The translations under genes were made by a program, and so were the position numbers. A stretch of DNA of 35,504 nucleotides from Gammaproteobacteria bacterium (GTDB lineage Bacteria; Pseudomonadota; Gammaproteobacteria; Steroidobacterales; Steroidobacteraceae): assembly GCA_027452045.1 (NCBI GenBank), contig DAIDHH010000084.1, positions 1-35,504 of the forward strand, in the 5' to 3' direction. Below, piece after piece: positions 1 through 32,002 of the stretch (the stretch's first letter is position 1; each line of letters starts with the position of its first letter). Below the pieces are notes generated by a model. It was not told where the DNA came from. It ran no database searches and saw only the letters and a list, made by a program, of their open reading frames with translations.

Positions 1-498
1 CTCCGCCCACTTGATGAGCGCGGTGAGCGCGTATTTGTCCTCATCCGACAGCAACGCATTCTGCTTTTCGAGCACCTTGCGGCAGTGGCGAATCGCCTTG
101 GCCGCATCGAGATAGTTCGAGCGGCCCATGAGCAGCGCCACCGTAAGCCGCGTGCCCGTCGCGCGCTCGATGAGCGTGACAGCGCGCGCGGCATCGCAGG
201 CCGGATCGAGCGCGGTCGGGACGCCGGGCAGGGTGGCGTAAATCTGCCGCTGAAGCCCGCGCGTGTAGGTCGAATAGATCATGCGCGCGCCCTGCTCGGC
301 GCAGTAGAGGCCCGCGGCCACGGCGTTCGCAATCGTCTTGCCGGTGCCGGTGGAGGCTTGCGCGAAGAGCTGTCCGCACCCGGCCTCGTTCGCCCTCACG
401 ATGCCGGCGTGGACGTGATCGGCGAGGGCGCGCTGCACATCGTTCTCGACGAGTCCCAACGCGGGTCCGTGGATGTTGAGAATTTCAGACGGTTTCAT
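1..498 (-). CDS. csf4: Csf4/CasDinG-like superfamily 2 helicase, N-terminal part (cut by window edge)
   Basis: The frame is open for 166 codons from ATG at 498 to the left edge. It shows a Walker A motif ASTGTGKT (residues 48–55), a motif Ia-like STYTRGLQRQ (about 76–85) and MGRSNYL (about 124–130), as in DinG/XPD-type 5'-3' helicases. In housekeeping DinG the last motif is usually followed by an iron–sulfur cysteine; here an Asp follows. CasDinG enzymes of type IV-A are described as having only a vestigial Fe–S domain, which fits. The start at 498 is preceded by GGAG six bases upstream; an in-frame ATG at 510 lacks a good site. It is the last visible gene of the csf operon, 83 bp after csf2. 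In type IV-A this helicase is needed for interference. The C-terminal helicase motifs cannot be checked here. Confidence 0.8.
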   Translation of the reverse strand, partial: MKPSEILNIHGPALGLVENDVQRALADHVHAGIVRANEAGCGQLFAQASTGTGKTIANAVAAGLYCAEQGARMIYSTYTRGLQRQIYATLPGVPTALDPACDAARAVTLIERATGTRLTVALLMGRSNYLDAAKAIRHCRKVLEKQNALLSDEDKYALTALIKWAE

Positions 499-581: not shown

Positions 582-1757
582 TCAGGCCGCTTCGTCCTCG
601 CCCACCTCGGTATCCCTGCCGGCCGCCTGGATGGCGGCGTGAGTCAGATCGAGGCTGCCCGCGGCGGCCAGGGCGCGAAGCGACTTCGCCTCGAGCCACT
701 CGGCGGCGCGTCCCGTGACCTCGAGAGTCCCACCGCTGCCGTCGAACGCGACCCGGCCTGCCGCGGTCCACTCGCGCGAACCGGACTCGCGCACCGTGAC
801 ATCGTAGGCCGCCGACACCTGACCGCAGCCGTGGAACCACCGCCCACCGTAATACGGCCAGGCCGCCCAGGCATCGAGCGCGAGCATGAACAGTTCGAGC
901 TCGGCATCGCTCGGATCGCGCAGCATCCACGAGTGCGCGAACACCGTGGCCTTGCGGATGCACTCGTAGCTGAGGTCCGGCTGCGCGAGCGACACGTGCT
1001 CGATGCCGGCGAGCTCGGTCTCGATGATAGCGAGCGCCGCGCGGGCCTCGGCGATTGCCCTCGTGTCATTCTTTGCCCGGGCGGCGGAAAGTTGCCGCTG
1101 CGCCGCCCTCTTTCGCTGCTTGATCTCGCTGCCCTTCTTCGCCTCCTCGCGCCGGATGAGATAGGACTCGACGTCATCGGCCGACCAGTCGAACCGATCG
1201 GGATTGCGCGCGAGGTCATCGCAGCGGCTGTGCCTGACCGTATCGCACCAGGGGTCATACTCCCGGCGTTTCCCGGTCTTGGGGTCCTCCGTCTCCATGG
1301 GGCCAAAGAATTCCCCCGGCGTCTTGGCAATCGCGTGCTCACACCAGAGCCGCCCGCCGACCCCATTCACCATCGATCCGAAGAGGTGCACCAGCGGGTT
1401 GTGCACGCGGGCAAACCGCTCGCGCAGCATCGGGGAAATGGAGTCCGCGCTGCTCGATTTCTCGCCCTCGCCCTCCCCCTCGGTCTTATCCTTCTTGTCC
1501 TTCTTCCCCTTCTTGTCCGCCTTGTCGACGATGCCGCCCTGGGCGAGCAAGAAGTGATCGTCCGGATTTGGCTTGAACCCGATGAGATCGCACAGGATAT
1601 CCGACCCGCCGTGGCGCACGATGCCGCGCAGCGCCGAGGCGGTGAGATACGGCCGGCCGCCGAGGCGCGGGATCCCCGCGATGCCGGCGATGGTGTAACT
1701 GATCGGCGAGAGCGCGGCGATCTCGCCCGTGAAGCGAACGATACGGGGTGTCTTCAT
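582..1757 (-). CDS. csf2: Type IV CRISPR backbone protein Csf2 (Cas7-like)
   Basis: The protein has 391 residues. The N-terminus has the RAMP/Cas7 pattern: FTGEIAALSPISYTIAG, then PYLTASALRGIVRH (about 36–49). NPLVHLFGSMVNGVGGRL (about 120–137) matches the NP-LFG-GRL signature of Csf2 proteins. Csf2 forms the helical filament that coats the crRNA in type IV complexes. Two insertions stand out: a Lys/Glu/Ser-rich low-complexity linker (about 79–106) and a charged helical stretch (about 200–260) that could form a coiled coil. The start is supported by GGAG six bases upstream, and the gene begins 3 bp after csf3 ends, so it is co-transcribed. The family call rests on motifs read by eye. Confidence 0.82.
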   Translation of the reverse strand: MKTPRIVRFTGEIAALSPISYTIAGIAGIPRLGGRPYLTASALRGIVRHGGSDILCDLIGFKPNPDDHFLLAQGGIVDKADKKGKKDKKDKTEGEGEGEKSSSADSISPMLRERFARVHNPLVHLFGSMVNGVGGRLWCEHAIAKTPGEFFGPMETEDPKTGKRREYDPWCDTVRHSRCDDLARNPDRFDWSADDVESYLIRREEAKKGSEIKQRKRAAQRQLSAARAKNDTRAIAEARAALAIIETELAGIEHVSLAQPDLSYECIRKATVFAHSWMLRDPSDAELELFMLALDAWAAWPYYGGRWFHGCGQVSAAYDVTVRESGSREWTAAGRVAFDGSGGTLEVTGRAAEWLEAKSLRALAAAGSLDLTHAAIQAAGRDTEVGEDEAA

Positions 1758-1760
1758 GAT

Positions 1761-2558
1761 TTACTCCGAGAGAGAATCGGTTGACGGTTGAAAAGAGCAG
1801 AGCAGGAGCCAGCGTTGGGCGTCATCCGCCCACCACGCCCGCCGGGTCGGCGGCAACACACACAGACGCTGCGTGCGGGCCTCGAAATACGGCATGCGAT
1901 CGGCCGCGGACTCGAGGCGCAATCCCTCCGTGCCGAAACCCACGGCCTGCCATGTGTCGATATCCACCGGCCGCATCGGGACCGCCACGGGCGGCCGCGC
2001 CGCTCGATCCTCGAGCGGCCAGGCGATCGAGCGGTCGGCCTCGTAGGGCTCGATCCTGAGACTGCCCGGTACGAGCTTGCCGTACCCCTGCCGCGCCTTG
2101 CGGCCGATATGCGTGAGCTCCGACAGAAAATCGCGGACAGCGGCGATATCGCCCCGACCGAACCACACGATCTGTTCGGCTTCGAGCGCCTCGTAGGCAT
2201 CGAGCGTATTGCGATACGCCCCGGCCTTCGGGTTGATCGCCGTGTACTCGCGGCGTCCCTTGAACTTGCGCGAAGGCCACACGAAGCGCGGTTCGCTCGC
2301 CTCGCGCGGGGCAAGCCCGCTCCGGAACACCGCCGTGCCGCGCGGGGCGGAGCGTACATCGCCCTTGAGAAAGGCGGCACTGCCGTGCCGAATGCCGTTC
2401 GTCTCGGCGAGCGGCACCGCGCGCATCGCGAGCGCGGCATCCTGGGTGCGCTCGAAAATGAGCGCACCGATCAGAGCATCGAGCGTGAGAAAGGCGCGCG
2501 GATTGAGGATGAGCGGCGTATCAAGCGCGGCGCTCACGGCGAAATTCTGGTGATCCAT
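1761..2558 (-). CDS. csf3: Type IV CRISPR protein Csf3 (Cas5-like)
   Basis: The protein has 265 residues. It begins with a hydrophobic RAMP-like strand and NPRAFLTLDALIGALIFER (about 19–37), has a middle basic segment (SRKFKGRREY, 96–105), and a glycine-rich IGRKARQGYGKL (151–162) like the G-loop of Cas5/Csf3 proteins. Csf3 is expected to cap the 5' handle of the crRNA and anchor the Csf2 filament. The start at 2558 has GGAG five bases upstream. It lies 9 bp after the cas6-like gene and 3 bp before csf2. The position beside csf2 and the G-loop make Csf3 the best reading, but a diverged second RAMP subunit cannot be excluded without a profile search. Confidence 0.72.
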   Translation of the reverse strand: MDHQNFAVSAALDTPLILNPRAFLTLDALIGALIFERTQDAALAMRAVPLAETNGIRHGSAAFLKGDVRSAPRGTAVFRSGLAPREASEPRFVWPSRKFKGRREYTAINPKAGAYRNTLDAYEALEAEQIVWFGRGDIAAVRDFLSELTHIGRKARQGYGKLVPGSLRIEPYEADRSIAWPLEDRAARPPVAVPMRPVDIDTWQAVGFGTEGLRLESAADRMPYFEARTQRLCVLPPTRRAWWADDAQRWLLLCSFQPSTDSLSE

Positions 2559-2567
2559 GTGGGCTCC

Positions 2568-3191
2568 TCACTGCCGCTCGGCGGGCGGAGCCCCGCACGG
2601 GAATGCCGTTCGCGGGACCTGCGGCCGGAAGTGCAGGACACCGAAGCCGAACCCGCGCGCCCGGCCAAAGCCACGCTCGTGCGCTGCGCGCGCCCGTTCG
2701 AGGTCCTCGATCGTGACGGTGCCGGCGAAATTGATCGGCACGAAGTGAAACTCGCCGCGACCCGGCTTTCGGATCGCGACCGTGGGTTCCGTCCACACCT
2801 CGAGCGAGGAGACCCCAAGGCCCGCCCGCTCGGCAAGGAGCGGCGCGAGAACGCGCGCGAAGTCAGAGCGCCGCACGGCATAGGATGTGACCTTCGCCCG
2901 GTGCTCGAGGCGGTGGTAATCGAGCGCGATGCGGCCCAACACCTTGTAGTGGCCCCCCGCGATGAGCGGGGTGAGTTCTCGCCAGGGTATTTCCTCACCC
3001 GCTGAGCGCGTGGCCGCGCGCAGGTAGAGCACGCCCTGCGGGGCGCAAAACTCATAGAGGTAATCCCGGGGGTTGCGATTCATCAGACCCGCCACCCGCT
3101 CGTGAATCTCGTACGCGCCGAGGCCGGCGAGCGGTCCCAGACCGGCGTACGGCGTGCGAAGAACGGTCTCGTACATGGTGAAAGCCCTCAT
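2568..3191 (-). CDS. Cas6/Csf5-like crRNA-processing endoribonuclease
   Basis: The protein has 207 residues. A GAYEIHERVAGLM segment places a histidine at residue 30 (or 25 if translation starts at the second Met), the position and context of the catalytic His in Cas6e-type enzymes. Near the C-terminus HERGFGRARGFGFGVL (171–186) is a typical Cas6 glycine-rich loop. Cas6/Csf5 cuts CRISPR repeat RNA to mature crRNA. The ATG at 3191 overlaps the stop of the upstream gene by 4 bp; an in-frame ATG at 3176 has GAGG about nine bases upstream and is an alternative. A processing nuclease implies a repeat array somewhere, but none lies in this window. It could be called csf5 or cas6 depending on which family it clusters with. 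Confidence 0.68.
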   Translation of the reverse strand: MRAFTMYETVLRTPYAGLGPLAGLGAYEIHERVAGLMNRNPRDYLYEFCAPQGVLYLRAATRSAGEEIPWRELTPLIAGGHYKVLGRIALDYHRLEHRAKVTSYAVRRSDFARVLAPLLAERAGLGVSSLEVWTEPTVAIRKPGRGEFHFVPINFAGTVTIEDLERARAAHERGFGRARGFGFGVLHFRPQVPRTAFPCGAPPAERQ

Positions 3192-3892
3192 GCGGCCGAG
3201 GAAATGCCGGTGGCGGCGGCATCGCCCGCGCTAGCGCGTTCGTGGTACCAATCGAGATAGTTGCCGAGAAGTCCCTGGCGCATACCGGACTCGAGATACG
3301 CGCTGACCATGGCCGCGACGGTCTGTAGGTCGAGCGACTGCCGCGCCGCGAATTTCTCGAGCGCCTCGCGATAGGCGCGCGAGGAGGCCCCGGAGGCTTC
3401 CTCCCGGGCGCGCCGCGCGGCGGCGAGAAGCACCCCGATGTGCGCGCTCTTTGGAAACGCGAGCGCCCCCGCGATCGCCTCGAGCACCGCCGGATACGCG
3501 AAGACCGGCCCGCCCGAGCGCACGTCGTAGTAGCCGGGCGCGGCCGAGCCCGGGAAATTGAGCACGAGGTGCTTCGGGTCGGCCGCAGGCTTTGCAAACA
3601 CGACCCCGACCCATTGGTAAGACAGTCCTTGGAAGAGCGCCTCGCGGATGCGCTTGATCCCGACGCCCTGCTCACCGCGCGATTTGAGGCCCGCGGCCGG
3701 ATAATCCGCCCCGTAGACCTCGGGCTGACCGTTCTCTGGGATGAACACCGCGGTCATGCTGCGACGGCCGGGGTAATACCGGCCGTCCCTCGGATCGAGT
3801 CCCGCCAATCCGAACCACCCTGCGGGGTTTCCCGGGGCGATCAAGCGCCCGTAGCGCTCGTATGCGAATTCAATGGCTGTCTCTGATGACAT
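3188..3892 (-). CDS. First gene of the csf operon; candidate diverged Csf1 (Cas8-like subunit)
   Basis: The protein has 234 residues from ATG at 3892, which has GGAG eight bases upstream; the open frame continues further upstream but through the promoter, so longer starts are unlikely. The N-terminal half is rich in aromatic, Gly and Pro residues (AYERYGRLIAPGNPAGWFGL). The C-terminal third is helical and charged (about 160–225). The protein has no cysteine at all, so it cannot have the four-Cys zinc finger known in many Csf1 proteins. I do not recognise a domain with certainty. The Csf1 call rests on its place in the operon, being the only missing type IV-A subunit, and its size. It could instead be an unrelated accessory protein. 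Confidence 0.5.
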   Translation of the reverse strand: MSSETAIEFAYERYGRLIAPGNPAGWFGLAGLDPRDGRYYPGRRSMTAVFIPENGQPEVYGADYPAAGLKSRGEQGVGIKRIREALFQGLSYQWVGVVFAKPAADPKHLVLNFPGSAAPGYYDVRSGGPVFAYPAVLEAIAGALAFPKSAHIGVLLAAARRAREEASGASSRAYREALEKFAARQSLDLQTVAAMVSAYLESGMRQGLLGNYLDWYHERASAGDAAATGISSAA

Positions 3893-3923: not shown

Positions 3924-3952
3924 ATGGTATGGCTTGCCATACTCCAAGTCAA
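3924..3952 (-). promoter_or_regulatory. csf operon promoter with operator A between -35 and -10
   Basis: On the minus strand, -35 TTGACT (3952–3947) and -10 TACCAT (3929–3924) are 17 bp apart. The spacer and part of the -10 box hold the palindrome GTATGGC-AA-GCCATAC (3927–3942), with perfect 7-bp arms. It matches 15 of 17 positions of the element-wide operator GGTATGGCATGCCATAC. A further GGTATGG half-site lies at 3914–3920. The start codon of the first csf gene is about 30 bp downstream. A bound repressor would block RNA polymerase. Confidence 0.75.
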
Positions 3953-3992
3953 GTCAGCCTGGATAGGGCGGGCATCAGACTCTGGAATAGAA

Positions 3993-4009
3993 ACGCTATC
4001 CGATAGCGT
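3993..4009 (-). terminator. Palindrome, possible terminator after the methyltransferase–ASCH operon
   Basis: ACGCTATC and GATAGCGT are perfect 8-bp arms around one base. Read on the minus strand it can fold as a 6-bp stem with a 5-base loop followed by TTTCTATT, as in an intrinsic terminator. It sits between the last gene of the upstream operon (ends 4115) and the csf promoter. It could also be an operator for a second regulator, as TATCGGA occurs twice, 11 bp apart. The rest of 3893–4114 holds only the csf promoter. Confidence 0.45.
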
Positions 4010-4114
4010 CCGATACCCTCTGACCGGTGCTGCAAGGTCGTGCAACGTTGTGCGAAGTGGTGACGAGCGGCGTCACGCGGAGGCGACGGGCGAAGAGCGG
4101 TGTACTGCGCCCCA

Positions 4115-4489
4115 TCACTCACGTGTGTACTCGAACTCGATCCGCGTCACGAGGTCCCCGGGACCGCAGGCATGGGTCCGGCAGAAGAACTCGATGAAGT
4201 CCTGCGGACGGGAGAGCACAGGATCGTCCCCGAAGCCCTCGAGCGCGCACTCCCGCCGTCCGTATGCCTCGTCGATCAGCAGGTCGACGAGCGCCTCCTG
4301 GCGCACGCTGACGATACGGAGCGGCGCGCGGATCACCTCCACCTTCTCGCCCCGCTTCAAGCCCTGGGACTTCACGACGGGGCGCACGAGGTCGCTCGGC
4401 TTCAAGAACGTCCACCCCATCCGGCGCGTCACCGTCTTCGTGCCAGCGCGCACCTGCGCGGTCGTGAGCGCAAAACTCATGTTACGCAT
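4115..4489 (-). CDS. ASCH-domain-like phage protein
   Basis: The protein has 124 residues. It begins MSFALTTAQVRAGTKTVTRR, then GWTFLKPSDLVRPV, the pattern of small phage ASCH-type proteins in which a TxxVRxGxKTVTRR segment is followed by a LKPGD loop. ASCH domains are beta-barrels related to PUA and are thought to bind RNA or modified nucleotides; the role in phages is not settled. ATG at 4489 and in-frame ATG at 4480 are both possible. It is the last gene of the long minus-strand operon starting near 12,748. Confidence 0.6.
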   Translation of the reverse strand: MRNMSFALTTAQVRAGTKTVTRRMGWTFLKPSDLVRPVVKSQGLKRGEKVEVIRAPLRIVSVRQEALVDLLIDEAYGRRECALEGFGDDPVLSRPQDFIEFFCRTHACGPGDLVTRIEFEYTRE

Positions 4490-6669: not shown

Positions 6670-7084
6670 CGAGAGCCCCTCGCTGCGGCGGGTCACGAAT
6701 CTCAAAGAACCCGCGTAGCGAAGGACTCACGCACATCGCGAGACGTGCGAGTCCAGCCGTAGCGCAGTTATCGATCTTGAAGTGTCGCGCGCGCGAGCGA
6801 TACTTTTCGCTCACCTCCGTGCGCCAGCGCAATACGTGACAGAGCCCATCGGCCGACCACCGACTGGTCCCCCGGCGGCGCGACAGCCGCGCGAGACGCA
6901 CGAACGCATCGAAGACGTGGCGGTTCTCCGCGATCCAGGGCCAAAAGTCACGCGGATAGCTGCCATCGTCGTACTTGCGCCGCCATTCGCGTACCGTATC
7001 CGATGCGCGGCAGTTGGCGCGCTTGGCGGTCCCACGCTTGCCCGCCCGTCGGCGGGAGTCCTTCTGAGCGTTTGCGCGGGTCAT
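6641..7084 (-). CDS. Conserved-looking phage hypothetical protein
   Basis: The protein has 147 residues. After a basic N-terminus (KDSRRRAGKRG) comes WPWIAENRHVFDAFVRLA, then RWSADGLCHVLRW and FKIDNCATAGLARLAM. The W-I-x-E-N/F-x-x-F and FKINN-like segments recall a small protein often found beside methyltransferases in phage early regions, but no function is established. Its ATG overlaps the preceding stop by 4 bp, and its end overlaps the methyltransferase start. Confidence 0.6.
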   Translation of the reverse strand: MTRANAQKDSRRRAGKRGTAKRANCRASDTVREWRRKYDDGSYPRDFWPWIAENRHVFDAFVRLARLSRRRGTSRWSADGLCHVLRWRTEVSEKYRSRARHFKIDNCATAGLARLAMCVSPSLRGFFEIRDPPQRGALDEHEHRHHA

Positions 7085-7617
7085 GAGCCGCCTCCGTCCC
7101 GGCGATAGCGCGCGCGACGGTCACGCGAGCGAAGCGTGGACTTCGACAACCCCACCTCATCGGCGGCGCGCCCCCGCGACCACCCGACTTGTCGCAACAA
7201 CTCGAGATTCGATAGATGTCTATTGGCGCGGCAATGCTCCCGAATGGCGGCGGCAAGGTTCCCTTCACGATCAGCGCGATCCTCTATGGCCTCGATGAGC
7301 GCGTCCAGGCCGCAGCATTGCGCGGCCTGTAAGCACTCGGCGGGCGCGCGCTCGGGAATGGCTGATTCAACCTCGACTCGATATTCGAGATACCGCTTCG
7401 TCCTGCCCCACATGCGACCTGCCACGTACGACGTCGCGCTGCCGGCGGCGTTTGAATAGTTCGTCTCACCTCTCGTGAGTTCGAGGCAGAACACATACAG
7501 GTCCTGCCGGATGTCCTCGAGCGGGGCGTGGGAGCGCGCGGCCCACTGTTTACAACTCGGCTCGAGCGTCTCAAAGAGGCTTTGTGCCGCCGCGGCGCGC
7601 CAGTCGTTTTCGATCAT
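7081..7617 (-). CDS. Sigma/HTH-like regulator, copy 2 of a tandem pair
   Basis: The protein has 178 residues from ATG at 7617 (ATGA overlap with the gene before). The N-terminal part AQSLFETLEPSCKQWAAR with LEDIRQDLYVFCLE resembles the region 2 helices of sigma-70-family proteins. The C-terminal part ends in a helix-turn-helix, WSRGRAADEVGLSKSTLRSR, like region 4. It is closely similar to the gene just upstream: I count 29 identities in a 44-residue aligned block. Possible roles are a late-gene activator or a dedicated sigma factor. It could equally be an unrelated HTH protein; the sigma reading is inference. Confidence 0.6.
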   Translation of the reverse strand: MIENDWRAAAAQSLFETLEPSCKQWAARSHAPLEDIRQDLYVFCLELTRGETNYSNAAGSATSYVAGRMWGRTKRYLEYRVEVESAIPERAPAECLQAAQCCGLDALIEAIEDRADREGNLAAAIREHCRANRHLSNLELLRQVGWSRGRAADEVGLSKSTLRSRDRRARYRRDGGGS

Positions 7618-8375
7618 GACGCACTCTCCGCCCGGCGCTTGCGTTCGCGCCGCTCGCGCGAACGAATGGTGGCCTTGGAGAGCCCGATCTCCCGAGCCGC
7701 GCGGCTTTGCGACCAAGTAGCGCGACGCATGATCTCAAGCGACGACAATTCGGCATGCGCCCGGTAATTCTTGCGCAGCGCGGCAGCATCCTCCCGGTCC
7801 TTCTCTCGGCGCCGCTCGATTACTTCCAACCGCTCATCGATGGCGAGACACTGCTCCGCATGGGTCGTGTCTGCCGCCGGGCGCTCGGGCAGCACCTTGT
7901 CGGGGCGCGCGCGGAATTCCCGGTAGCGCTCGGCCGCACCCCACATCCGCCCCGACACGTACACGCTCGCCGCGGCGAATGAGGACTCCGGAGGAGGTCC
8001 ATCCGATGGCGACAGGGGCGCGCTCGGCGCGCGCGTTCGATACTCCGTCTCACCGAGCACGACCTCGAGACACAGGACGTAGAGATCCTGGCGGATATCC
8101 TCGATCGACACGCGCGCGCGGCTGGCCCACTTCTCGCAACTCGGCTCGAGCGCGTTAAAGAGGCTTTGTGCGGCGAGCACTTTCTCCGCCCGCGCATCTG
8201 AATTGCGCTTCACGGGAGCCGTCCGGCGGCCGCCTCTCTCGAAAGAAGCGGCCGCGCGGTTTGTCGCATGACGGTCGGCGGACCCGTCCACCGCGTCCCT
8301 GGGCCCATCGAACCGGTCAGCGGCCGGCGCGCCCGGGGCGGATGTGGGAGACTCCACTGCTGTGCCGAGCATCAT
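7614..8375 (-). CDS. Sigma/HTH-like regulator, copy 1 of a tandem pair
   Basis: The protein has 253 residues from ATG at 8375, overlapping the parB-like stop as ATGA. A disordered N-terminal extension of about 75 residues precedes AQSLFNALEPSCEKWASR and IEDIRQDLYVLCLE, then ends with WSQSRAAREIGLSKATIRSR. The C-terminal two-thirds align with the next gene, so the two arose by duplication. Copy 1 also has an inserted Pro/Ser-rich loop before VYVSGRMWGAAERY; the VAGRMWG/VSGRMWG segment is shared by both. The position near the end of the early operon would suit a middle or late regulator. Confidence 0.6.
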   Translation of the reverse strand: MMLGTAVESPTSAPGAPAADRFDGPRDAVDGSADRHATNRAAASFERGGRRTAPVKRNSDARAEKVLAAQSLFNALEPSCEKWASRARVSIEDIRQDLYVLCLEVVLGETEYRTRAPSAPLSPSDGPPPESSFAAASVYVSGRMWGAAERYREFRARPDKVLPERPAADTTHAEQCLAIDERLEVIERRREKDREDAAALRKNYRAHAELSSLEIMRRATWSQSRAAREIGLSKATIRSRERRERKRRAESAS

Positions 8376-9613
8376 GCCGCCGCCCCTGCCGAGGGCGCGC
8401 GTCCATCCGCGGACGCCGGAGCGCGCTCGGACCACTTGACGTAGGCCCCCTGAACGCCAAACCCCGGCGGTCCCATGTCTCCGCAGACGTAACACGTGAC
8501 GCGCCAGGTATCGCTCGGTCGATCCACGCACACCGCGGCGTGCGCACCCTTCCCGCAATGCGGGCACGGCGGTCCCGCCATCCCGCGATGACCGGGATCC
8601 GGTCCTTCCGAAAGGCGCCTTCCCTCCTGGGGTTGCTGAGAAGTCTGGCTTGCCAGACCCGCTGAGCCAAAAGAAGGGTCCGATCCAGGCGCGGCACCGT
8701 CGCCGGCAGCACTGTCAAAGTCAGAGGACTCCTCGGTCTTGGAGGTCTCAAAGGCTTGTGACCCGATTCCCTTACCACACTGCCCCGTGATCGCCGCCTC
8801 GGCGCATTCGGTCCCAAGCTCCGTCATCTCCCCATCCGACGATGAGTTCTTCCCTGTCGCGCCTTCGACATCCTCCACGGGCGTATCGCCCCCATGCGTT
8901 GCGGACCCTGCCTTCGTCGGACCGCCGCCGGGGCCAAAGAGCGCGGTCTGCTTCTTGGCATTCTGCCGCTCGATGAAGGCCAACGCCTTGCGGCAGCGGC
9001 CGACGGAGATCGGATCGATGGAATCGAGCAGGATCTTCTTCGCCTCGGGGGGCAACGCGCAGTACGACTGCCATGCCTCGACGCTCGAGAGTCGATCGGC
9101 ATGGATGAGCGCGAGTGCATCGGGCGTGCGCGCGATATCGAGCGCGCCTTTGACCCACTCCTCGCTCCGCGCGAGCACATGGGCGATCACCTCCGGCTCC
9201 ATACCGCCTTCCACCAGTTCGCGTACCGCCTCGGCGTACTCGTCGAGCTTCAACTCCTCGCGATGCATGTTCTCCGAGGTCTGCAGCACGCGAAGTTCAG
9301 TCACGCTATGCGTGAGGTAGATACGGCACGGCAGCGTCTCAAGCCCGATGAACTTCGCCGCGCGCCATCGACGCTCGCCGTCGATGATCATCCAGCGCTT
9401 CGTCCCGGGGGCAATCTCGTGCACCCCGATTGGGTGCAGTAGTCCGATGACCGCGATGCTGCGACAGAGCTCACTGAAGCGGTCGGGGTCGATGAACGTG
9501 CGGATCTGATCGGGGTCCGGCACGATATCGTTGACGGGGAGTTCTCGAAACTCCCTGGGTTTCAACGGCCCATCCCCGAACGGTAGTTCGGGGGCAATGT
9601 TTCGCTCGCTCAT
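8372..9613 (-). CDS. ParB-like protein fused to a Lar-type zinc ribbon
   Basis: The protein has 413 residues from ATG at 9613, with GAGG eight bases upstream. The N-terminal ParB/Spo0J domain shows ELPVNDIVPDPDQIRTF (24–40), DGERRWRAAKFIG (78–90) and SENMHREELKLDEYAEAV (113–130), followed by a helix-turn-helix (about 135–160). A long Ser/Gly/Glu-rich linker leads to a C-terminal zinc ribbon PCPHCG…WRVTCYVCGDMGPPG (Cys 350, 353, 374, 377) and an A-x4-W tail like restriction-alleviation protein Lar. No ParA is seen, so classical partition is unlikely. The gene lies between methyltransferases and regulators; a link to DNA modification or anti-restriction is inference. An operator-like palindrome lies inside the gene. 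Confidence 0.8.
   Translation of the reverse strand: MSERNIAPELPFGDGPLKPREFRELPVNDIVPDPDQIRTFIDPDRFSELCRSIAVIGLLHPIGVHEIAPGTKRWMIIDGERRWRAAKFIGLETLPCRIYLTHSVTELRVLQTSENMHREELKLDEYAEAVRELVEGGMEPEVIAHVLARSEEWVKGALDIARTPDALALIHADRLSSVEAWQSYCALPPEAKKILLDSIDPISVGRCRKALAFIERQNAKKQTALFGPGGGPTKAGSATHGGDTPVEDVEGATGKNSSSDGEMTELGTECAEAAITGQCGKGIGSQAFETSKTEESSDFDSAAGDGAAPGSDPSFGSAGLASQTSQQPQEGRRLSEGPDPGHRGMAGPPCPHCGKGAHAAVCVDRPSDTWRVTCYVCGDMGPPGFGVQGAYVKWSERAPASADGRAPSAGAAA
8643..8658. promoter_or_regulatory. Operator-like palindrome inside the parB-like gene
   Basis: GTCTGGC-TT-GCCAGAC has perfect 7-bp arms. It matches the GGTCTGGCATGC variant seen at the pL- and pR-like operators. It lies in coding sequence for the linker, and I see no convincing -35/-10 pair around it on either strand. 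It could be an auxiliary repressor site (looping or roadblock), a ParB-like binding site, or chance. Confidence 0.4.
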
Positions 9614-11310
9614 GATGATTTCCTCACCGTCTCCTGTTCGAATGGTTCTTGGTCGCGAAGGATTTCCTCGACCATCTGGATGCGTGCACCGACCCACGAC
9701 ATGACGTTGATCGCCATGCTGTTGCCGAGCGCCTTGTAGCGGGGACCATCCGCGGCAGACTTGCCGCGGTATGGAATGAGCGTGTAGTCATCGGGAAATC
9801 CCTGAAGCCGCTCGCACTCCCTTGGCGTCAGTCGGCGCACGCCCGCGACATAGCTCACAGTCATGGGGTCGCCGTCACGGCGCATCACGGGCTGAGGCGG
9901 TTCTTCTGGGTTGCTCGGATCGCTGCCGAGACCGACCGAGCGCGCCACATAGCTACGCGAGCTTCCGCCGGTGGCGGCTCGCACCGAGGCAACGTCGGAC
10001 GTTTCGGGCTGTGATCCTCCCTCGCGGCCGCGCAGATTGAACGCAACGGCCAACTGCCCGCCGGCATTCGGGTGCGACCCCGAGTGGCCCATGGCGCGCA
10101 GCGTCGGAGCACACCCGTCGAGCGCGTCCGCACCGTGATCCTTACAAGAGAACGCAATCATCGGCACGCCTTGCCCCGGCTTGCCGCCACCGGCGTTGAG
10201 AGCACCGGCGCGCTGGCCGTCGCCGCTTTCGAGTCTCAGTTCAGAGCGACTGTTTTCCGCGAAGGCAATGGCCTGTGGCCGTGCTCGCCCTTCCAGCGTA
10301 TAGGCCACGCCGTCGGTGGAGACGCCGATGCCATCGGGACTTGCGGCAGGGTTTGCCTCCGTTGCGCGCTCTTGAATCGCAGCAACGAGCGGCACGCCGC
10401 GACCGGTGCCGTCCTCGCTGGCATCGGCCCCTTCGGCCTTCAGACAATGCGCGACGAAGGTCTCCGTCTCGAAATCCATGCGCCCGCTGGCCGTCCCGCA
10501 CGCGTTAAGCGCGGTGGCGACATCGATCGGACCACTCGTGTTATTGCCACCGAAGGCACGCGCAATGAGCGTGTTCCGGTCTTCGCGATAAACCCCGCCG
10601 TTTGAGGCACAGAGCGCGTGCGCCGGCTCTACGAGTCCGCCGTCGAGGTCGAAGTCGGTGCCGAAGCCACCGCTGCCTTGAGGGCGCGCGTTAAGTGTGC
10701 CGGTAATTGTTTGCCGCGCGTCTCTGCGCGGCGGAGGATCCCCGCGCAGGCACGCGGGCTCAAAAAGTACCGCCGCGGCGGGTCGGATGTCTCCAAGATA
10801 TCCGACAAGGATGACACGGCGTCGGCGCTGCGGGACGGCACGAGCGTGTGATTCCACTCGCACGTACTGAGCGTCCAGCACTCGGTAGGCCCACCCATAC
10901 CCGAGTTGAGAAAGCGCCCCGAGGAAGGCACCAAAGTCCCGCCCTCCGTTCGATGACAGGACACCGGGTACGTTCTCCCAGACGATCCAGCGCGGAGCAA
11001 AGCACCGAAGAACCTCGAGGTAGACCATCGTGAGCCGACCACGCGAGCCGCGAAGTCCCGCCCGTCGTCCTGCGATAGAAAAGTCCTGACAGGGCGATCC
11101 GCCCACGAGAAGGTCGATTGTTGCATTCGGCCATTCCTCAAACCGATTGATGTCCCCGAGGTTCGCCACCCCGGGGTAGTGATGCGCGAGGAGCGCGGAG
11201 CAGAAGGGGTCGATTTCCGAGAACGACGCCGGCTTCCACCCGAGACGATGCCACGCAACCGTGGCGGCCTCGATGCCGGAGAAGACGCTGCCGTACACGA
11301 GTTCGGTCAC
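9610..11310 (-). CDS. DNA (cytosine-5) methyltransferase, phage type
   Basis: The protein has 566 residues. Motif I FSGIEAATVAW (10–20), motif IV GGSPCQDFS (70–78, catalytic Cys 74), motif VI WENVPGV (111–117), motif VIII QRRRRVILVG (161–170), and C-terminal motifs IX–X LTPRECERLQGFPDDY and ALGNSMA (about 494–533) are all present. Between VIII and IX is an insert of about 290 residues containing repeated LNA-type segments (GTLNARPQGSG, ALNACGTASG, ALNAGGGKPG), probably the target-recognition region. The start is GTG at 11310: AAGGAGG lies seven bases upstream and the codon overlaps the previous stop as GTGA. No cognate endonuclease is present. Confidence 0.92.
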   Translation of the reverse strand: MTELVYGSVFSGIEAATVAWHRLGWKPASFSEIDPFCSALLAHHYPGVANLGDINRFEEWPNATIDLLVGGSPCQDFSIAGRRAGLRGSRGRLTMVYLEVLRCFAPRWIVWENVPGVLSSNGGRDFGAFLGALSQLGYGWAYRVLDAQYVRVESHARAVPQRRRRVILVGYLGDIRPAAAVLFEPACLRGDPPPRRDARQTITGTLNARPQGSGGFGTDFDLDGGLVEPAHALCASNGGVYREDRNTLIARAFGGNNTSGPIDVATALNACGTASGRMDFETETFVAHCLKAEGADASEDGTGRGVPLVAAIQERATEANPAASPDGIGVSTDGVAYTLEGRARPQAIAFAENSRSELRLESGDGQRAGALNAGGGKPGQGVPMIAFSCKDHGADALDGCAPTLRAMGHSGSHPNAGGQLAVAFNLRGREGGSQPETSDVASVRAATGGSSRSYVARSVGLGSDPSNPEEPPQPVMRRDGDPMTVSYVAGVRRLTPRECERLQGFPDDYTLIPYRGKSAADGPRYKALGNSMAINVMSWVGARIQMVEEILRDQEPFEQETVRKSS

Positions 11311-12946: not shown

Positions 12947-12976
12947 GTGATATGGCATGCCATACCTGGTGAGCAA
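12947..12976 (-). promoter_or_regulatory. Promoter of the modification operon with operator B
   Basis: On the minus strand, TTGCTC (12976–12971) and TATCAC (12952–12947) are 18 bp apart. Between them and over the -10 lies a perfect 14-bp palindrome TATGGCATGCCATA (12951–12964), 16 of 17 matches to the element operator. The remaining part of the 12,749–12,989 gap is a leader of about 200 bp, with no gene that I can support. Confidence 0.65.
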
Positions 12977-12989
12977 AAATAACCGCCGC

Positions 12990-14588
12990 CTAACCACGAC
13001 CGGCCTCCTTCCCCCCAGGTGTGCCGCGCCTACCGTCACCGGTGAGTGCGGGATTGAGTTCCACGACCCATGATCGTCCCTCGCGGACGATCCGGATCCG
13101 GGCGGCGTCTTCCAGAATGGCCAGCGCCTGTGTGAACCGTTCGCGCTCGCGGACGGGACCCAAGCGCTGTACATCGCGCTTCGTGAAACGAGTCTTGGCG
13201 GTATCGGGAGCGCGTTTGACCAACCACCCGTCGATCAGGACCGCGTCGCCGATTTCAACGGGCAGCGCCAGTTGCCCAAAGAACCGCCGCGCCTCCTGCA
13301 GGTGCCAGTTCATGATCGAGGCAGCGGCGCAGATATGACGCTCAGCCACGATCGTCGCGGCCGGGTCCTCGAACACGGCCAGCACCGCCGCGACCCGCGC
13401 GAGGTTGTCTGCCGCCTTCGCCGCTACGTCCTTCAGGTCCGCCATCTCCCGGGTCGGCCGCATGGAGTGCTCGACGTTATCGTGCCACGTGATCCATGCT
13501 TGTTTCGCAGCCGGTTCCAACGGCAGCGCGCGCGGCACCAGACGGCCATGCTCATCCAGTGTCCCCTGCCGCTCGAGCATCGCGCGCAATTGCGCGTGAT
13601 ACGCCGAGAGCGCGGGGAACCCCGGCGGCGGCTCACAGAAGTCACGGTATCCCTGGGTGCTCTCCGGCCATGCGATGAGAAAACGCGCGAGAAACCCGGA
13701 TGAGCGTGCGAGGCCGCGGGTGCTCTGCACAAAGTCGAGCAGCAGTCCCGACTGCACCTGGATACCGACGGTAAGGCGCGCGCCCGCGACCCGGAAGCTC
13801 TCCTTGGTCCGCCGGTCGATCGTCACACTCGCGCCATCCCATAGAACATTGATTAACGCGAGATTGCGGACAAGCGTCTCCTTGCTCATGCCGTGACCGC
13901 CCAGGATCATTCCGCCCTCGGCCGCCATGATGGCCGCGGAGGGCCACTTCTTCGCCAAGCCCCACGCGATCGCCTCCGGCGTCGTGTCCTCATAGAACAT
14001 CTGCGGGACGCGCGGCGCCTCGGGTTTTGCGCGCTGAGCTTCCGCGAGTTCCGCGACGCTATCGGCACTCGCCGCTTTTCCCTTCTCCTTGCGCAACCCG
14101 GCGGTGAGCGCTTCCATCCTAGCGTTCCACGCAGCCATCTCGGCCTCGAAGTCCTTCGCCTGCTCAGTGTGCTCGTCGATGCGAGCCTGTTCATAGTCGC
14201 GCAAGGGCTTCGCGAAGCAGTTGTCGCAGGCGCTCTTGCGTTCGCCCGATTCGGCAACCGTGATCGAAAAGAGACTGCACGGCCCACGCAACCCTTCAGC
14301 GCGCTCCACGTCCGCGATACCCTGTGCGGCGAGACTCATCGCGGTCACCGCGCTGGTCGCCACCATGGACAGAGGCGCTTTCAAAAAGCCTTGTACCTCC
14401 TGCACCGCCTCGCGCACGACATCGGGCAGGGCTTCGATCGGGTACGGCACCGCGGCGAGCGCCGGGATGATCTGCTCGGGCGTCGGCCAGGCGTCGCCGC
14501 CCGCCTCACCGCGTTTCTCGCGGAAGCGCCGCAAGATCTCCTCCGCCGCGGCACCGCGCGGTTCATAGTCGGTACCCTCAGTGGACAC
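12990..14588 (-). CDS. DUF3987-family replication protein (primase/helicase-associated)
   Basis: The protein has 532 residues from GTG at 14588, overlapping the upstream CHC2 gene by 11 bp. The hydrophobic helix after PLSMVATSAVTAMSLAAQG leads into ITVAESGERKSACDNCF (109–124), the G-x-R-K-S Walker A variant of DUF3987 proteins. A charged coiled-coil-like stretch follows (about 130–190). The C-terminal part (FTKRDVQRLGPVRERERFTQ, AARIRIVREGRSWVVELNP) looks like a winged helix. DUF3987 proteins accompany primase zinc-finger proteins in many phages and islands and are thought to act in replication initiation. The neighbours here agree. Confidence 0.75.
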   Translation of the reverse strand: MSTEGTDYEPRGAAAEEILRRFREKRGEAGGDAWPTPEQIIPALAAVPYPIEALPDVVREAVQEVQGFLKAPLSMVATSAVTAMSLAAQGIADVERAEGLRGPCSLFSITVAESGERKSACDNCFAKPLRDYEQARIDEHTEQAKDFEAEMAAWNARMEALTAGLRKEKGKAASADSVAELAEAQRAKPEAPRVPQMFYEDTTPEAIAWGLAKKWPSAAIMAAEGGMILGGHGMSKETLVRNLALINVLWDGASVTIDRRTKESFRVAGARLTVGIQVQSGLLLDFVQSTRGLARSSGFLARFLIAWPESTQGYRDFCEPPPGFPALSAYHAQLRAMLERQGTLDEHGRLVPRALPLEPAAKQAWITWHDNVEHSMRPTREMADLKDVAAKAADNLARVAAVLAVFEDPAATIVAERHICAAASIMNWHLQEARRFFGQLALPVEIGDAVLIDGWLVKRAPDTAKTRFTKRDVQRLGPVRERERFTQALAILEDAARIRIVREGRSWVVELNPALTGDGRRGTPGGKEAGRG

Positions 14589-18606: not shown

Positions 18607-18903
18607 CTACGGGCGGGGCGGCACGCGCTTCTTCGAAGCGCGACGCGTCGGCGCGCCGACGCACTCGGCAGACCGCCGTGATGAGCCCGAGGGTGCCGTG
18701 CGCCCCGGAATTACCGGCGCGGGGCGACCGAGGTACTCGTTTGGATCGAACTTCAGCTTCCCCGCCGTGATCGCCGAGAGCTGCCAGGCGCGCAACGCCG
18801 GGACCCGTTCACCCCAGGACGTGAGAGACGCCTTCGTGATACCGAGTGCGCGCGCGATCGCGCTTTTCGTGCCGAAGTGGCGGACGGCGTCTTCTGTTCT
18901 CAT
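18607..18903 (-). CDS. Cro-like repressor
   Basis: The protein has 98 residues from ATG at 18903. AVRHFGTKSAIARALGITKA then SLTSWGERVPALRAWQLSAI and TAGKLKFDP follow the P22 Cro/DicC pattern: FG…A…LGI, S…W…VP and TxGxLK. The helix-turn-helix lies at about 11–32. The last ~45 residues are basic and unstructured. The frame is open upstream through the operator, but the predicted transcript starts at or within two bases of this ATG, so the mRNA is probably leaderless. It is the first gene of the minus-strand early arm and should compete with the CI-like protein for the shared operators. Confidence 0.8.
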   Translation of the reverse strand: MRTEDAVRHFGTKSAIARALGITKASLTSWGERVPALRAWQLSAITAGKLKFDPNEYLGRPAPVIPGRTAPSGSSRRSAECVGAPTRRASKKRVPPRP

Positions 18904-18910
18904 ACGGCAC

Positions 18911-18952
18911 AAAATAAAGCATGCCATACCTCATAGTCAAGCATGCCAGACC
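18911..18952 (-). promoter_or_regulatory. pR-like promoter with two operators (oR)
   Basis: On the minus strand, -35 TTGACT (18940–18935) and a -10 TATTTT (18916–18911, 18-bp spacing; TTTATT at 16 bp is an alternative) drive cro. One operator, GTCAAGCATGCCAGACC (18936–18952), overlaps the -35. A second, with a perfect GGTATGGCATGC half (18914–18930), fills the spacer. They are 22 bp apart, about two helical turns. The predicted start point is next to the cro ATG. The region also lies upstream of the CI-like gene; a weak TATACC at 18969–18974 could be its -10. Confidence 0.75.
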
Positions 18953-19491: not shown

Positions 19492-19532
19492 GGTCTGGCA
19501 TGCTTGACCCATGGTAAAGCTTGCCGTACTCT
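19492..19532 (+). promoter_or_regulatory. pL-like promoter with two operators (oL)
   Basis: -35 TTGACC (19504–19509) and -10 TACTCT (19527–19532) are 17 bp apart. GGTCTGGCATGCTTGAC (19492–19508) overlaps the -35 and is an exact 17-bp inverted copy of the oR site at 18936–18952. GGTAAAGCTTGCCGTAC (about 19514–19529; 13 of 17 matches) fills the spacer, again 22 bp away. The next ATG (19539) begins 6 nt after the -10, so the transcript should be leaderless. Confidence 0.78.
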
Positions 19533-19538
19533 TAGGGC

Positions 19539-19865
19539 ATGACTGCCGCCCATGCGTTTGCTGATTCGAGGGTGTTGAGGCGCTATCTGCGGGGACTTGG
19601 CCCGCTGCCCGACCCGGAGATCCGCCGCGCGCATGACGTTCGTCATCTGGTGGTCTGCGCGGACTGCCGGTGTCTCGCCGACGACCGGCACTGCGTAACC
19701 CGGGCCGGGAAGCCCTATCACGGTCGGTGTTTCTTGCGCAGCTTCGGAATGCGCGCCCTGCAAGCGCTGCCGCCGAAAGCGCGAAGCGGACTTCAGCTTT
19801 CCGACATCGGGGTACTTGTGGCGCGCGTCCTCATCGAGGGCGACGCGGCAGCCCCGTTGCAATAG
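19539..19865 (+). CDS. Leaderless first gene of the pL-like arm, Cys-rich protein
   Basis: The protein has 108 residues from ATG at 19539, only 6 nt after the predicted -10 box and with no ribosome site. A Cys/His cluster CADCRCLADDRHC…YHGRC (about 47–66) suggests zinc binding. The C-terminal half (MRALQALPPKARSGLQLSDI) is helical. It occupies the position of lambda N, so a role in antitermination or early control is worth considering, but there is no Arg-rich motif like that of N and I do not recognise a family. Confidence 0.6.
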   Translation: MTAAHAFADSRVLRRYLRGLGPLPDPEIRRAHDVRHLVVCADCRCLADDRHCVTRAGKPYHGRCFLRSFGMRALQALPPKARSGLQLSDIGVLVARVLIEGDAAAPLQ

Positions 19866-30264: not shown

Positions 30265-30294
30265 TTGACAGGAAGGTAAGGCATGCCATACTCT
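30265..30294 (+). promoter_or_regulatory. xis–int promoter with operator E
   Basis: -35 TTGACA (30265–30270) and -10 TACTCT (30289–30294) are 18 bp apart. GGTAAGGCATGCCATAC (30275–30291) matches 16 of 17 positions of the element operator and overlaps the -10. An ATG follows 6 nt after the -10, as at the pL-like promoter. Confidence 0.75.
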
Positions 30295-30300
30295 GAAACC

Positions 30301-30351
30301 ATGTTCTACGCGCCCTTTCACGAGCTCACGCCGGGAGGACGGTCATCATGA
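30301..30351 (+). CDS. Leaderless 16-codon ORF in front of xis
   Basis: MFYAPFHELTPGGRSS is encoded from ATG at 30301, 6 nt after the -10 box. Its stop overlaps the xis start as ATGA, and the xis ribosome site (GGAGG, nine bases before the ATG) lies inside it. It could be a leader peptide coupling leaderless initiation to xis translation. Confidence 0.45.
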   Translation: MFYAPFHELTPGGRSS

Positions 30352-30740
30352 CCGCCCAATCGATGCCGCCGCTGCCGATCCTCTTTACCCTGGAGGAGGT
30401 GGCGGGGCATCTGAGAGTGAGCGTGCGTACCGTGAAGCGATTCGTCCAATCCGGTAAGCTCGCCGCCGTGCGGTTCGGGCGTTCGGCCCGGGTCCGCCGG
30501 GAAGACCTCGAAATCTTTCTGCGCGAGGGCACATGCAAGACGAACGTGACCGGGTCGGACGCTTCTTCCTCAAGCGTTACAACAGCGCGAAATACTGGTA
30601 TATCTGCTGGTACGACCCCAAGACACGACAGACGGCTGGTGTTTCAACTGGCACGGCAGACCGCGACGCGGCGAGGCAAGCCCTCCTCGACCATGCCCTG
30701 CGACACGAGCGACCCACCGTCGGCGCCGATGCGCAGTTAG
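30348..30740 (+). CDS. xis: Excisionase-like MerR/HTH_17 protein
   Basis: The protein has 130 residues. LFTLEEVAGHLRVSVRTVKR, FVQSGKLAAVRFGRSARVRR and EDLEIFLREG (about 12–61) form a winged-helix excisionase domain. The remaining ~65 residues are low in structure and overlap the integrase gene by 208 bp in another frame, so the functional part is probably the first half. Excisionases bend attachment-site DNA and direct the integrase towards excision. Expression should follow the operator-controlled promoter just upstream. Confidence 0.75.
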   Translation: MTAQSMPPLPILFTLEEVAGHLRVSVRTVKRFVQSGKLAAVRFGRSARVRREDLEIFLREGTCKTNVTGSDASSSSVTTARNTGISAGTTPRHDRRLVFQLARQTATRRGKPSSTMPCDTSDPPSAPMRS

Positions 30741-31852
30741 CCGAAGTTCTCCAAGCCTACTACATCCACTACGCGCAGCACCTGCCGAGCGCACCGGCGC
30801 AGCGGGCCGCGCAGCGCGATGCGCTCGATCTGTGGGGTGACGCGAATGTCAGCGCGCTCACCCGGAACAAGCAGTTGGAACTCGTGACCGCGCTACGCGA
30901 GCGCGGTCTCTCGGACTGGACCATCGACGGGCGCCTCAACCGCATCTGGGCCGCGATGAGCTGGTGCAAGCGCGACAACAAGGACCTCGTCATCCCCGAG
31001 CAAATCACGGCGGAGGATTGGAAACCGGTCCTCGTCGACCGTGACCGCACCTTCTCGCTCGAGGAACTCGCGGCGCTCTTCAACGCAGCGGCCGCCCGGC
31101 CGGAGAATGAGCGCTATACCCGCGAGCACTGGTGGCGATTTCTCGTGCTCGCAGTCGGTACGGCGAGCCGCGAGGCGGCGTTGCGAGAGCTCACCTGGGA
31201 TCGCGTCGATCTTCGTCTCGGGCGAATCCAACTCAACCCCGAGGGTCGACGCCAGACGAAAAAGCGCCGGCCGACCATCGTGATCGCCCCGACGCTCGCC
31301 GCGGAACTCGCCGCCTGGCGCGAAGAGGACGTGGCGGCAGGTGCCGCCACCCATGCCAAGGTCCCGCCGAGGCCCCCTGGCGCGGCCGGCACACTCGGTA
31401 CCCGGGGCGAGGCGCATGTCATCACGTACTACGGCAAGCCGCTTGCCACCCGCGAGTTCTTCGACTTGCTCGCAGAGAAGGCCGGTGTCAGCGGCGGGCC
31501 GAACGTCATTCGGCACACCGTGCGCACGTGGCTCGCGGAGGATGGCGTGCCGGACTCCGAGGCGGATGTCTTCATGGGGCACCGGGAGGAAGGCAGCCCC
31601 ACAGGGCGGCGGTACAAGCACCGGCGGCCCGAGTATCTGCGCAACGTGGCGGACAGCATCGAGGGTCTCTACGAGGCGGTCGCAGGACTCCTCACGCGGT
31701 CCTTCAAGAGTCACGTGACGGTGGACCAGCCGGCGCCGGATGACCCCCATGTACGCGCGGCCGCCGCCATGGCGAGGCGGCGCGGCGAGACGCGGGTGTG
31801 CAATTTCTTCGATCCGGTCGCCGCCGAAGACTCGGGAGCCGGCGGAGAGTGA
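30533..31852 (+). CDS. int: Tyrosine-recombinase integrase
   Basis: The protein has 439 residues from ATG at 30533, with GAGG just upstream. The N-terminal KYWYICWYDPKTRQTAGVST is an arm-binding-type domain; a core-binding domain follows (about 65–160). The catalytic set is complete: Arg213 (GTASREAALRELTWD), His328 and Arg331 (IRHTVR), His350 (FMGHREEG) and nucleophile Tyr361 (RRYKH). A C-terminal tail of about 60 residues is extra. It is the last gene of the plus arm and stands 74 bp from the tRNA-Gly 3' end, the usual place for an integrase that uses a tRNA attachment site. Confidence 0.93.
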   Translation: MQDERDRVGRFFLKRYNSAKYWYICWYDPKTRQTAGVSTGTADRDAARQALLDHALRHERPTVGADAQLAEVLQAYYIHYAQHLPSAPAQRAAQRDALDLWGDANVSALTRNKQLELVTALRERGLSDWTIDGRLNRIWAAMSWCKRDNKDLVIPEQITAEDWKPVLVDRDRTFSLEELAALFNAAAARPENERYTREHWWRFLVLAVGTASREAALRELTWDRVDLRLGRIQLNPEGRRQTKKRRPTIVIAPTLAAELAAWREEDVAAGAATHAKVPPRPPGAAGTLGTRGEAHVITYYGKPLATREFFDLLAEKAGVSGGPNVIRHTVRTWLAEDGVPDSEADVFMGHREEGSPTGRRYKHRRPEYLRNVADSIEGLYEAVAGLLTRSFKSHVTVDQPAPDDPHVRAAAAMARRRGETRVCNFFDPVAAEDSGAGGE

Positions 31853-31926: not shown

Positions 31927-31950
31927 TGGAGCGGGAAACGAGGCTCGAAC
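31927..31950. other. Likely attachment-site core in the tRNA 3' end
   Basis: The integrase lies next to the T-arm and acceptor end of tRNA-Gly, with the CCA end (31927–31929) facing the element. Elements of this type recombine in that segment and restore the tRNA sequence. The exact core cannot be set because the other junction is outside the window. Confidence 0.5.
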
Positions 31951-32002
31951 TCGCGACCTCAACCTTGGCAAGGTTGCGCTCTACCAACTGAGCTATTCCC
32001 GC
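31927..32002 (-). tRNA. tRNA-Gly (GCC anticodon)
   Basis: The 76-nt gene folds as a full cloverleaf on the minus strand: acceptor GCGGGAA pairs with TTCCCGC, D-loop AGCTCAGTTGGTAGAGC, anticodon stem AACCT-TGCCAAG-style loop with GCC, T-arm GTTCGAGCC, discriminator T and encoded CCA. It is intact despite the neighbouring integration. Gene order uvrC–pgsA–tRNA-Gly is a known island insertion point in gammaproteobacteria. Confidence 0.96.

Follow-up and report, generated by a model that had tools for sequence, protein, structure and literature searches.

Type IV-A CRISPR systems typically act without cleaving their targets (PMC11551745, PMC11656645), and type IV systems have already been described in integrating conjugative elements and in some prophages (PMC11656645). 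The SXT/R391 conjugative elements carry the repressor SetR and a predicted Cro-like protein, with several dyad operators and early promoters that are repressed (PMC4542580). Each of the parts is known separately: integrating conjugative elements with type IV systems, CI/Cro-type control in such elements, and plasmid competition that works through type IV. What looks new in the DNA described here is the predicted wiring of a csf operon to the CI/Cro switch of its own element.

The window, meaning the whole analysed stretch of 35,504 nucleotides, is one entire contig (G000:C84) of a 3.72 Mb assembly, which comes in 198 contigs and is 75% complete. The searches brought up a single close relative of the element as a whole, in genome G038 of the same genus (record JAJZDX010000008.1, a Proteobacteria MAG). 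There the element sits at the same tRNA, with matching genes in the same order. The window and G038 are the only two elements with this csf operon in this analysis.

Our main reading, to which we give a probability of roughly 78%, is that a type IV-A-like csf operon belongs to the CI/Cro regulon of the element, and that it would be silent when integrated and expressed upon induction or entry. We infer the binding protein, the sign of the regulation and its timing from sequence. The initial annotation had already placed csf among the genes with this operator, and that membership is supported by the position of the site, by its genome-wide specificity, by a matrix built without csf, and by conservation in the diverged G038 copy.

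The proposed mechanism is as follows. While the element is integrated, CI would sit on the operator of csf and keep the effector silent together with the excision and early genes. Upon loss of CI, or entry into a cell that has none, csf would be expressed along with these genes. The type IV-A complex would then repress rival conjugative elements without cleaving the target; given this mode of action, csf expression would silence rather than kill. Single operators are also predicted on xis-int, on a methyltransferase and on a regulator-like gene pair. If this is right, the likely controlling signal can be read from the sequence, as the element's own dormancy switch. It also offers a simple answer to the question of when a conjugative element fights its rivals.

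Table 1. Features of the window that bear on the csf operon and its predicted control. Positions are those of the window.
Feature	Position	Strand	Basis and remarks
csf4/dinG helicase, 5' part	1..498	-	PADLOC typeIV_DinG Csf4_0_IVA E 1e-15 (stretch 1-381)
csf2 (Cas7-like)	582..1757	-	PADLOC typeIV_Cas7 E 1e-27; RAMP; 78% identical in G038
csf3 (Cas5-like)	1761..2558	-	NCBIfam cas5_csf3 E 4e-12, below cut-off; PADLOC typeIV_Cas5 E 3e-29
Cas6-type crRNA endonuclease	2568..3191	-	Pfam CRISPR_assoc E 3.3e-10; PADLOC Cas6; start may be 3176
First csf gene (Csf1 position)	3188..3892	-	named by position only
csf promoter	3924..3952	-	TTGACT 3952-3947, N17, TACCAT 3929-3924
csf operator (predicted)	3927..3942	.	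perfect 7-2-7 palindrome GTATGGC-TT-GCCATAC; mismatch-free in G038 too
ParB-family protein	8372-9697		ParB_N E 6.5e-16
Operator inside parB 3' end	8643..8658	.	2 mismatches; same place in G038, 122200
Methyltransferase upstream operator	12950..12965	.	1 mismatch; lacks a good -35; G038 counterpart at 118073
cro-like regulator (P22_Cro)	18607..18903	-	Pfam P22_Cro E 1e-20; sub-threshold NCBIfam DicC match
cro promoter operator	18914..18929	.	3 mismatches; TTGACT upstream, minus strand
Candidate second operator, cro-CI gap	18936..18951	.	22 bp from first; matrix score 14.4
CI-like repressor, 93 aa	18976..19257	+	Pfam HTH_3 E 5e-15; sub-threshold NCBIfam DicA match
Candidate second operator, pL-like promoter	19493..19508	.	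16-mer identical to 18936-18951 on other strand; score 14.4
pL-like promoter operator	19514..19529	.	3 mismatches; TTGACC upstream, plus strand
xis-int promoter operator	30276..30291	.	1 mismatch; TTGACA upstream, plus strand; 0 mismatches at G038 101207
Excisionase-like HTH protein	30348..30740	+	Pfam HTH_17; PHROG excisionase
Tyrosine integrase	30533..31852	+	Pfam Phage_integrase E 2e-9; 89% identical in G038; adjoins tRNA-Gly
tRNA-Gly (GCC), probable attachment gene	31927..32002	-	beside integrase; same neighbour in G038

The csf operon comprises the gene in csf1 position, cas6, csf3, csf2 and the start of dinG, which is cut by the contig end. A full-length DinG homologue is seen in G038 only (E 3e-99). 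PADLOC, NCBIfam and Pfam together recognize Csf2, Csf3, a Cas6-type nuclease and DinG in one operon, with csf scores that in NCBIfam do not reach the curated cut-offs. Judged by these genes, the operon is a type IV-A-like CRISPR system. The first gene is called csf1 by position only, because searches of Pfam, NCBIfam, PADLOC and PDB sequences gave no convincing match to Csf1 (Cas8-like). Type IV-A systems on plasmids and integrative conjugative elements likewise have csf2, csf3, cas6 and dinG, and spacers against conjugative elements (PMC11656645); the difference is this first gene, which matches no Csf1 model. The available text of the same source does not mention an element-repressor operator at a csf promoter.

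The csf promoter, TTGACT-N17-TACCAT on the minus strand, contains the exact 16-bp palindrome GTATGGCAAGCCATAC, which fills most of the spacer. The last three bases of the palindrome (TAC) are also the first three of the -10 box. The initial annotation had described these boxes and this exact palindrome correctly, but had put the palindrome wholly between the boxes, where in fact three of its bases belong to the -10. A protein bound over the spacer and the first bases of the -10 would be expected to repress sterically. The start codon of the csf1-position gene (3892) comes 34 bases past the end of the operator, with a GGAG motif ahead of it; csf has a leader with a ribosome site. A simple promoter scan of the first 20 kb found 3 sigma-70-like promoters, close to the 2.4 that shuffles give, but two of the three are csf and cro, both with operators inside.

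The cro start codon is 10 nt past its operator (18903-18929), and the start of the pL-like gene 9 nt past the operator there (19514-19539). These transcripts therefore look nearly leaderless, unlike that of csf. At xis, the operator is followed after 9 nt by a leader ORF of 16 codons (30301-30351), which overlaps the start codon of xis (ATGA). An ORF of the same size and with the same end is seen by eye at this place in G038.

Palindromes with at most 3 mismatches occur 8 times in the window; 100 dinucleotide shuffles have 1.04 on average and never more than 4. In 4 places of the window such a palindrome follows 4-6 nt after a TTGACA-like box with no more than 1 mismatch, a pairing that 100 Markov copies of the window contain 0.02 times on average and at most twice. 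Across the whole assembly, all 3 sites with at most 1 mismatch fall in this one contig. The chance expectation for the assembly, under an assumed base composition, is around 0.59 such sites and 0.013 perfect ones.

A matrix was also built from the 12 sites in the window and G038 that are not csf, with reversed sequences as control (best score 12.9). By this matrix the csf site scores highest of all in the window, and in G038 it shares the top rank (25.3 bits). In the window, csf is followed by the other five sites, and then by the two candidate second operators of Table 1. A chance palindrome is rejected on the basis of the shuffles, the assembly-wide scan, the matrix and the Markov controls.

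Within the window, the palindrome is exact at csf only. The TTGACA-like box stands 4-5 nt upstream of four window sites, and is missing at the methyltransferase and parB sites. The full arrangement of a TTGAC box, 4-5 nt, and an operator whose end starts the -10 is present at 4 promoters in the window and 5 in G038. At the methyltransferase, the -35 position reads TTGCTC in the window, and there is no -35 in G038. It had been claimed that the same palindrome occupies the same place in the cro, pL-like, methyltransferase and xis-int promoters. Variants with 1-3 mismatches do occupy that position at cro, pL-like and xis-int. The stronger wording fails twice, as the window has no further exact copy and the methyltransferase site lacks a proper -35. 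The site at 8643-8658, upstream of two HTH/sigma-like ORFs, was absent from that earlier list, as were the candidate second operators at 18936-18951 and 19493-19508. Two sites with 3 mismatches, at 10885 and 31540, fall inside genes and are taken as background.

The element is wired much as a lambdoid immunity region is. The CI and Cro genes are divergent, with sites between them and at the early promoters, and CI lies between the leftward cro promoter and the rightward pL-like promoter, each with an operator. G038 repeats this. Both promoters probably have a second operator as well, judging from the matrix, where these candidates score 14.4 against 12.9 for the best control and so stand barely above it; the one at 19493-19508 is 21 bp from the pL site. 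Lambdoid immunity regions have tandem operators on both sides of CI. If the second operators are real, then tandem operators flank CI here too.

Between window and G038, the identity is 57% for CI and 62% for Cro. In both proteins the stretch that by eye is likely to be the recognition helix reads T-K/R-A-S/T-V/L, and this similarity fits with shared operators. The 3 mismatches of the cro and pL sites in the window are not what one would expect of a master switch.

Like SXT/R391, this probable conjugative or mobilizable element has CI-like and Cro-like proteins and several putative dyad operators, and would be silent when integrated (PMC4542580). There are differences. SetR has 215 aa and a LexA-like peptidase, and responds to SOS (PMC4542580), while the CI-like protein here has 93 aa, with HTH_3 and no peptidase family among its Pfam matches; it is not by this measure a LexA-like peptidase repressor of the SXT/R391 type. 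The derepressing signal is therefore probably not direct RecA-driven cleavage as in SetR. The simplest route to derepression would be entry into a cell without CI. The operators of SetR are in one intergenic region, with a further suggested site 800 bp downstream (PMC4542580), whereas here they are spread over some 26 kb. The word CRISPR is absent from the SXT/R391 repressor paper (PMC4542580).

The palindrome might instead be read by some other protein of the element, for example the ParB-family protein, acting as a KorB-type regulator or by binding a partition site. KorB is a ParB-family repressor. The protein has a ParB_N domain, and the 16-bp palindromes are scattered over the element, with one inside parB itself. 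A G210 contig (L086) moreover has a ParB-like stretch and two operator sites, with no CI match. Most sites however are at a fixed distance from -35 and -10 boxes and on both sides of CI. In addition, short contigs of G210 and G166 pair CI homologues with operator-like sites, although parB may lie elsewhere in those genomes. Binding by ParB or another such protein in place of CI and Cro is therefore judged improbable.

The operator is conserved in G038. The csf and xis-int sites of G038 have 0 mismatches, five more sites have 1, and the site before a nuclease-like gene has 2. All 7 sites with at most 1 mismatch in the G038 genome fall in the element. When the csf promoters are aligned, 28 of the 63 columns before the -35 are identical, and 53 of all 96 upstream columns. 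The operator itself is identical in 14 of 16 columns, only the two free centre bases differing, and the -35 keeps TTGAC. The csf leader has 26 of 33 identical, meaning that the operator is not the sole conserved part. A further palindrome in G038, ATCTGGCGTGCCAGAT at G038:C70:110335-110350, scores 13.5, just above the control, and has no assigned role.

It is conceivable that csf is in the regulon with an operator that activates, with CI bound in the integrated state, or that merely fine-tunes, or that csf is expressed mainly through read-through. CI-type proteins can activate from suitably placed sites, and the rival-element sequences in the assembly of G038 itself would be useful targets in the resident state. 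No terminator-like site is listed at 3950-4115 on the minus strand, upstream of csf, so read-through from the upstream leftward genes could reach it. That leftward block has operators too, which would place such read-through under control as well. As for activation, an operator on the spacer and the start of the -10 is in a repressing position, as it is at xis-int and cro. We consider this group of alternatives rather unlikely, and keep to repression by CI in the integrated state.

As to what kind of element this is, the absence of structural families among the window proteins scanned and the presence of transfer genes in G038 suggest an integrative conjugative or mobilizable element that has tRNA-Gly as its insertion site. 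A PHROGs scan of 20 selected window proteins found no head, tail, capsid, portal or terminase family. The families it did find concern replication, methylation, regulation or integration, while several others have no known function. Both copies have the integrase, xis and tRNA-Gly that go with integration. Past csf, G038 continues with dinG, the CRISPR array, a TopB-like topoisomerase, TraT, DUF4942 and AbiEii-like genes. Further on come a NikA-like protein and a MobA/VirD2-type relaxase (E 9e-23), and then the contig ends. Relaxase and transfer genes are seen in G038 only; the window contig ends before that region. A complete secretion system was not seen in G038 up to its contig end, and the G038 stretch, which ends there too, has no second att copy of at least 13 bases.

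The initial annotation spoke of a prophage and its lysogenic state, for which there is no support in these genes. That the element is nevertheless a temperate phage, with csf as a lysogeny-regulated moron gene, is highly improbable. The P22-type Cro, the CI-like protein, the lambda-like topology, the integrase and xis would all suit a phage, as would the many PHROG matches and the filing of a matching contig as viral by IMG/VR, but none of the 20 window proteins scanned belongs to a capsid, portal, terminase or tail family, and G038 runs on into genes for transfer. The prophage was dropped as the main reading once the G038 contig showed these. For an integrative element that is not a prophage, the relevant states are integrated and quiescent on the one hand, and excised, transferring or newly arrived on the other.

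Going leftward from tRNA-Gly, the order is integrase, excisionase-like gene, a rightward early block, CI, Cro, and a leftward block. The leftward block holds a helicase, primase-like genes, methyltransferases, ParB, the two HTH/sigma-like ORFs and others, with the csf operon last. The two HTH/sigma-like ORFs (7081-8567) are related and in tandem, with a 71% DNA repeat over 156 nt, and lie downstream of the conserved operator in parB. These ORFs may activate transfer in the manner of SetCD. Clustered TTGCGACACTTGCGACAC-type repeats at 15600-15950 adjoin a primase-like gene, and are perhaps the iterons of a replication origin.

The array of G038 (L012:2860-4180) has 17 repeat cores, of which the later ones are decayed. 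For the window copy no array is seen, because the contig ends in dinG and a search of the window's assembly for the G038 repeat, allowing 1 mismatch, gave no match. Spacers against conjugative elements are thus a finding of G038 only.

Among normal-length spacers, 7 of 14 (sp1, sp3, sp4, sp5, sp7, sp11 and sp15) have full-length matches of roughly 89-97% to other DNA in the genus, within 12 loci that had been fetched for earlier matches and are not a random sample. Twenty sets of letter-shuffled spacers gave 5 matches in all. The long degenerate intervals sp12 and sp14 are left out of the 14, and sp8 (25/31) and sp13 (23/30) are not counted as matches. An interval of the decayed part also matches other contigs, including one in G000. 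Spacers sp1, sp3, sp4 and sp5 match one large gene of rival elements in G111, G172 and G127 (27/36 to 35/36), and the gene next to it is TrbL/VirB6 in G111 and G127. Upstream of most full matches, the flanking sequence has T as its final base, and often TT. A search of plasmids with the whole array gave 4 weak Streptomyces matches, which are taken as chance, and a search of phages gave no match.

Some of the spacer matches lie in the assembly of G038 itself, for example in G038:C48. Going by these matches, the array likely targets its own genome; this is likely and not proven, since MAGs can mix strains. Silence of csf in the resident state could be part of the reason why a host tolerates an array with matches in its own assembly. 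Action without cleavage, as in type IV-A, would be an additional reason.

It is tempting to go one step further and see a CRISPR weapon that is conditional on arrival. In a cell without CI, csf would fire together with the replication, methylation and excision genes, and silence the conjugation genes of resident rivals through the type IV-A complex. As CI builds up the weapon would be switched off again, and in a cell with the same immunity it would never fire. We hold this extension tentatively, at somewhat less than even odds. If true, it would tie CRISPR activity to superinfection immunity. Leading-region plasmid genes are likewise timed to entry into the recipient, but these are anti-defence genes, partly with single-strand promoters (PMC11541004), and here there is a CRISPR operon under a putative repressor operator, with timing that we infer.

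A CRISPR system on an excisable conjugative island is also known from pKLC102 of Pseudomonas aeruginosa. That system however is type I-C, its matched spacers are mostly against phages and prophages, and the available text describes no link to an element repressor (PMC7913775). The portion of a review of CRISPR regulation that was available contains no cas operon under the immunity repressor of a mobile element (PMC10013973). Full-text literature searches, mostly of non-subscription papers, found no case of a cas operon in such a regulon either. CRISPR systems borne by elements are known, but the literature searched describes no control of them by the element that bears them.

Parts of the regulon exist elsewhere. 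CI homologues with E <1e-12 were found in 4 of 217 family genomes, namely G000, G038, G166 and G210. Three contigs from G210 and G166 have CI homologues that are 56-57% identical, with operator-like sites (scores 14.3-21.8, the floor for all these contigs being 12.9). All three have a site ahead of the pL-like gene (15.8), two have one upstream of CI (14.3), and one has a site ahead of the nuclease-like gene (21.8). Only one of them has a Cro match, which does not adjoin CI. Contigs of G210 and G205 that have no CI match carry sites before a methyltransferase-like stretch (21.8), and the one from G210 has an exact site before the o6641 gene (25.3). None of these five contigs has a match to csf. 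In a scan of 58 genomes of the genus, 13 had sites with at most 1 mismatch; single sites that lie outside these elements are about as frequent as in the reversed-pattern control.

A csf2 scan of the family found 4 of 200 genomes, being the window's own, G038, and the weak G065 and G084. A csf1 scan of the class found 2 of 369, the window's own and a weak G229. Among GTDB contigs searched for relatives of csf1 and csf2 there was the G038 record only, and a search of phages found no closer relatives. In plasmids, 36 records have Csf2 matches, all below 60% identity. A csf2 search of IMG/VR found no closer relative, and a csf1 search there found the contig L005 alone. This contig is nearly identical to the window through the csf promoter, which it has letter for letter, and it is also the only hit of an exact scan of IMG/VR for promoter plus operator. 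L005 is filed as viral although the element looks conjugative, which is likely a misfiling.

Other scans brought up further candidates. The integrase scan matched 5 of 217 genomes, with G085 at 38%, and the fetched stretches of G069 and G091 share int and xis only. The DUF3987 scan matched 6 of 58 genomes. In G111, G172, G127, G190 and a second G038 contig, the DUF3987 gene is the only thing in common in the fetched stretches. The stretches fetched from these two scans have no site with at most 2 mismatches, except for one 2-mismatch site in G069. The DUF3987 gene of the window (12990-14588) is 76-88% identical in the elements of G111, G172, G127 and the second G038 contig, and three of these contigs are also among those matched by the G038 spacers.
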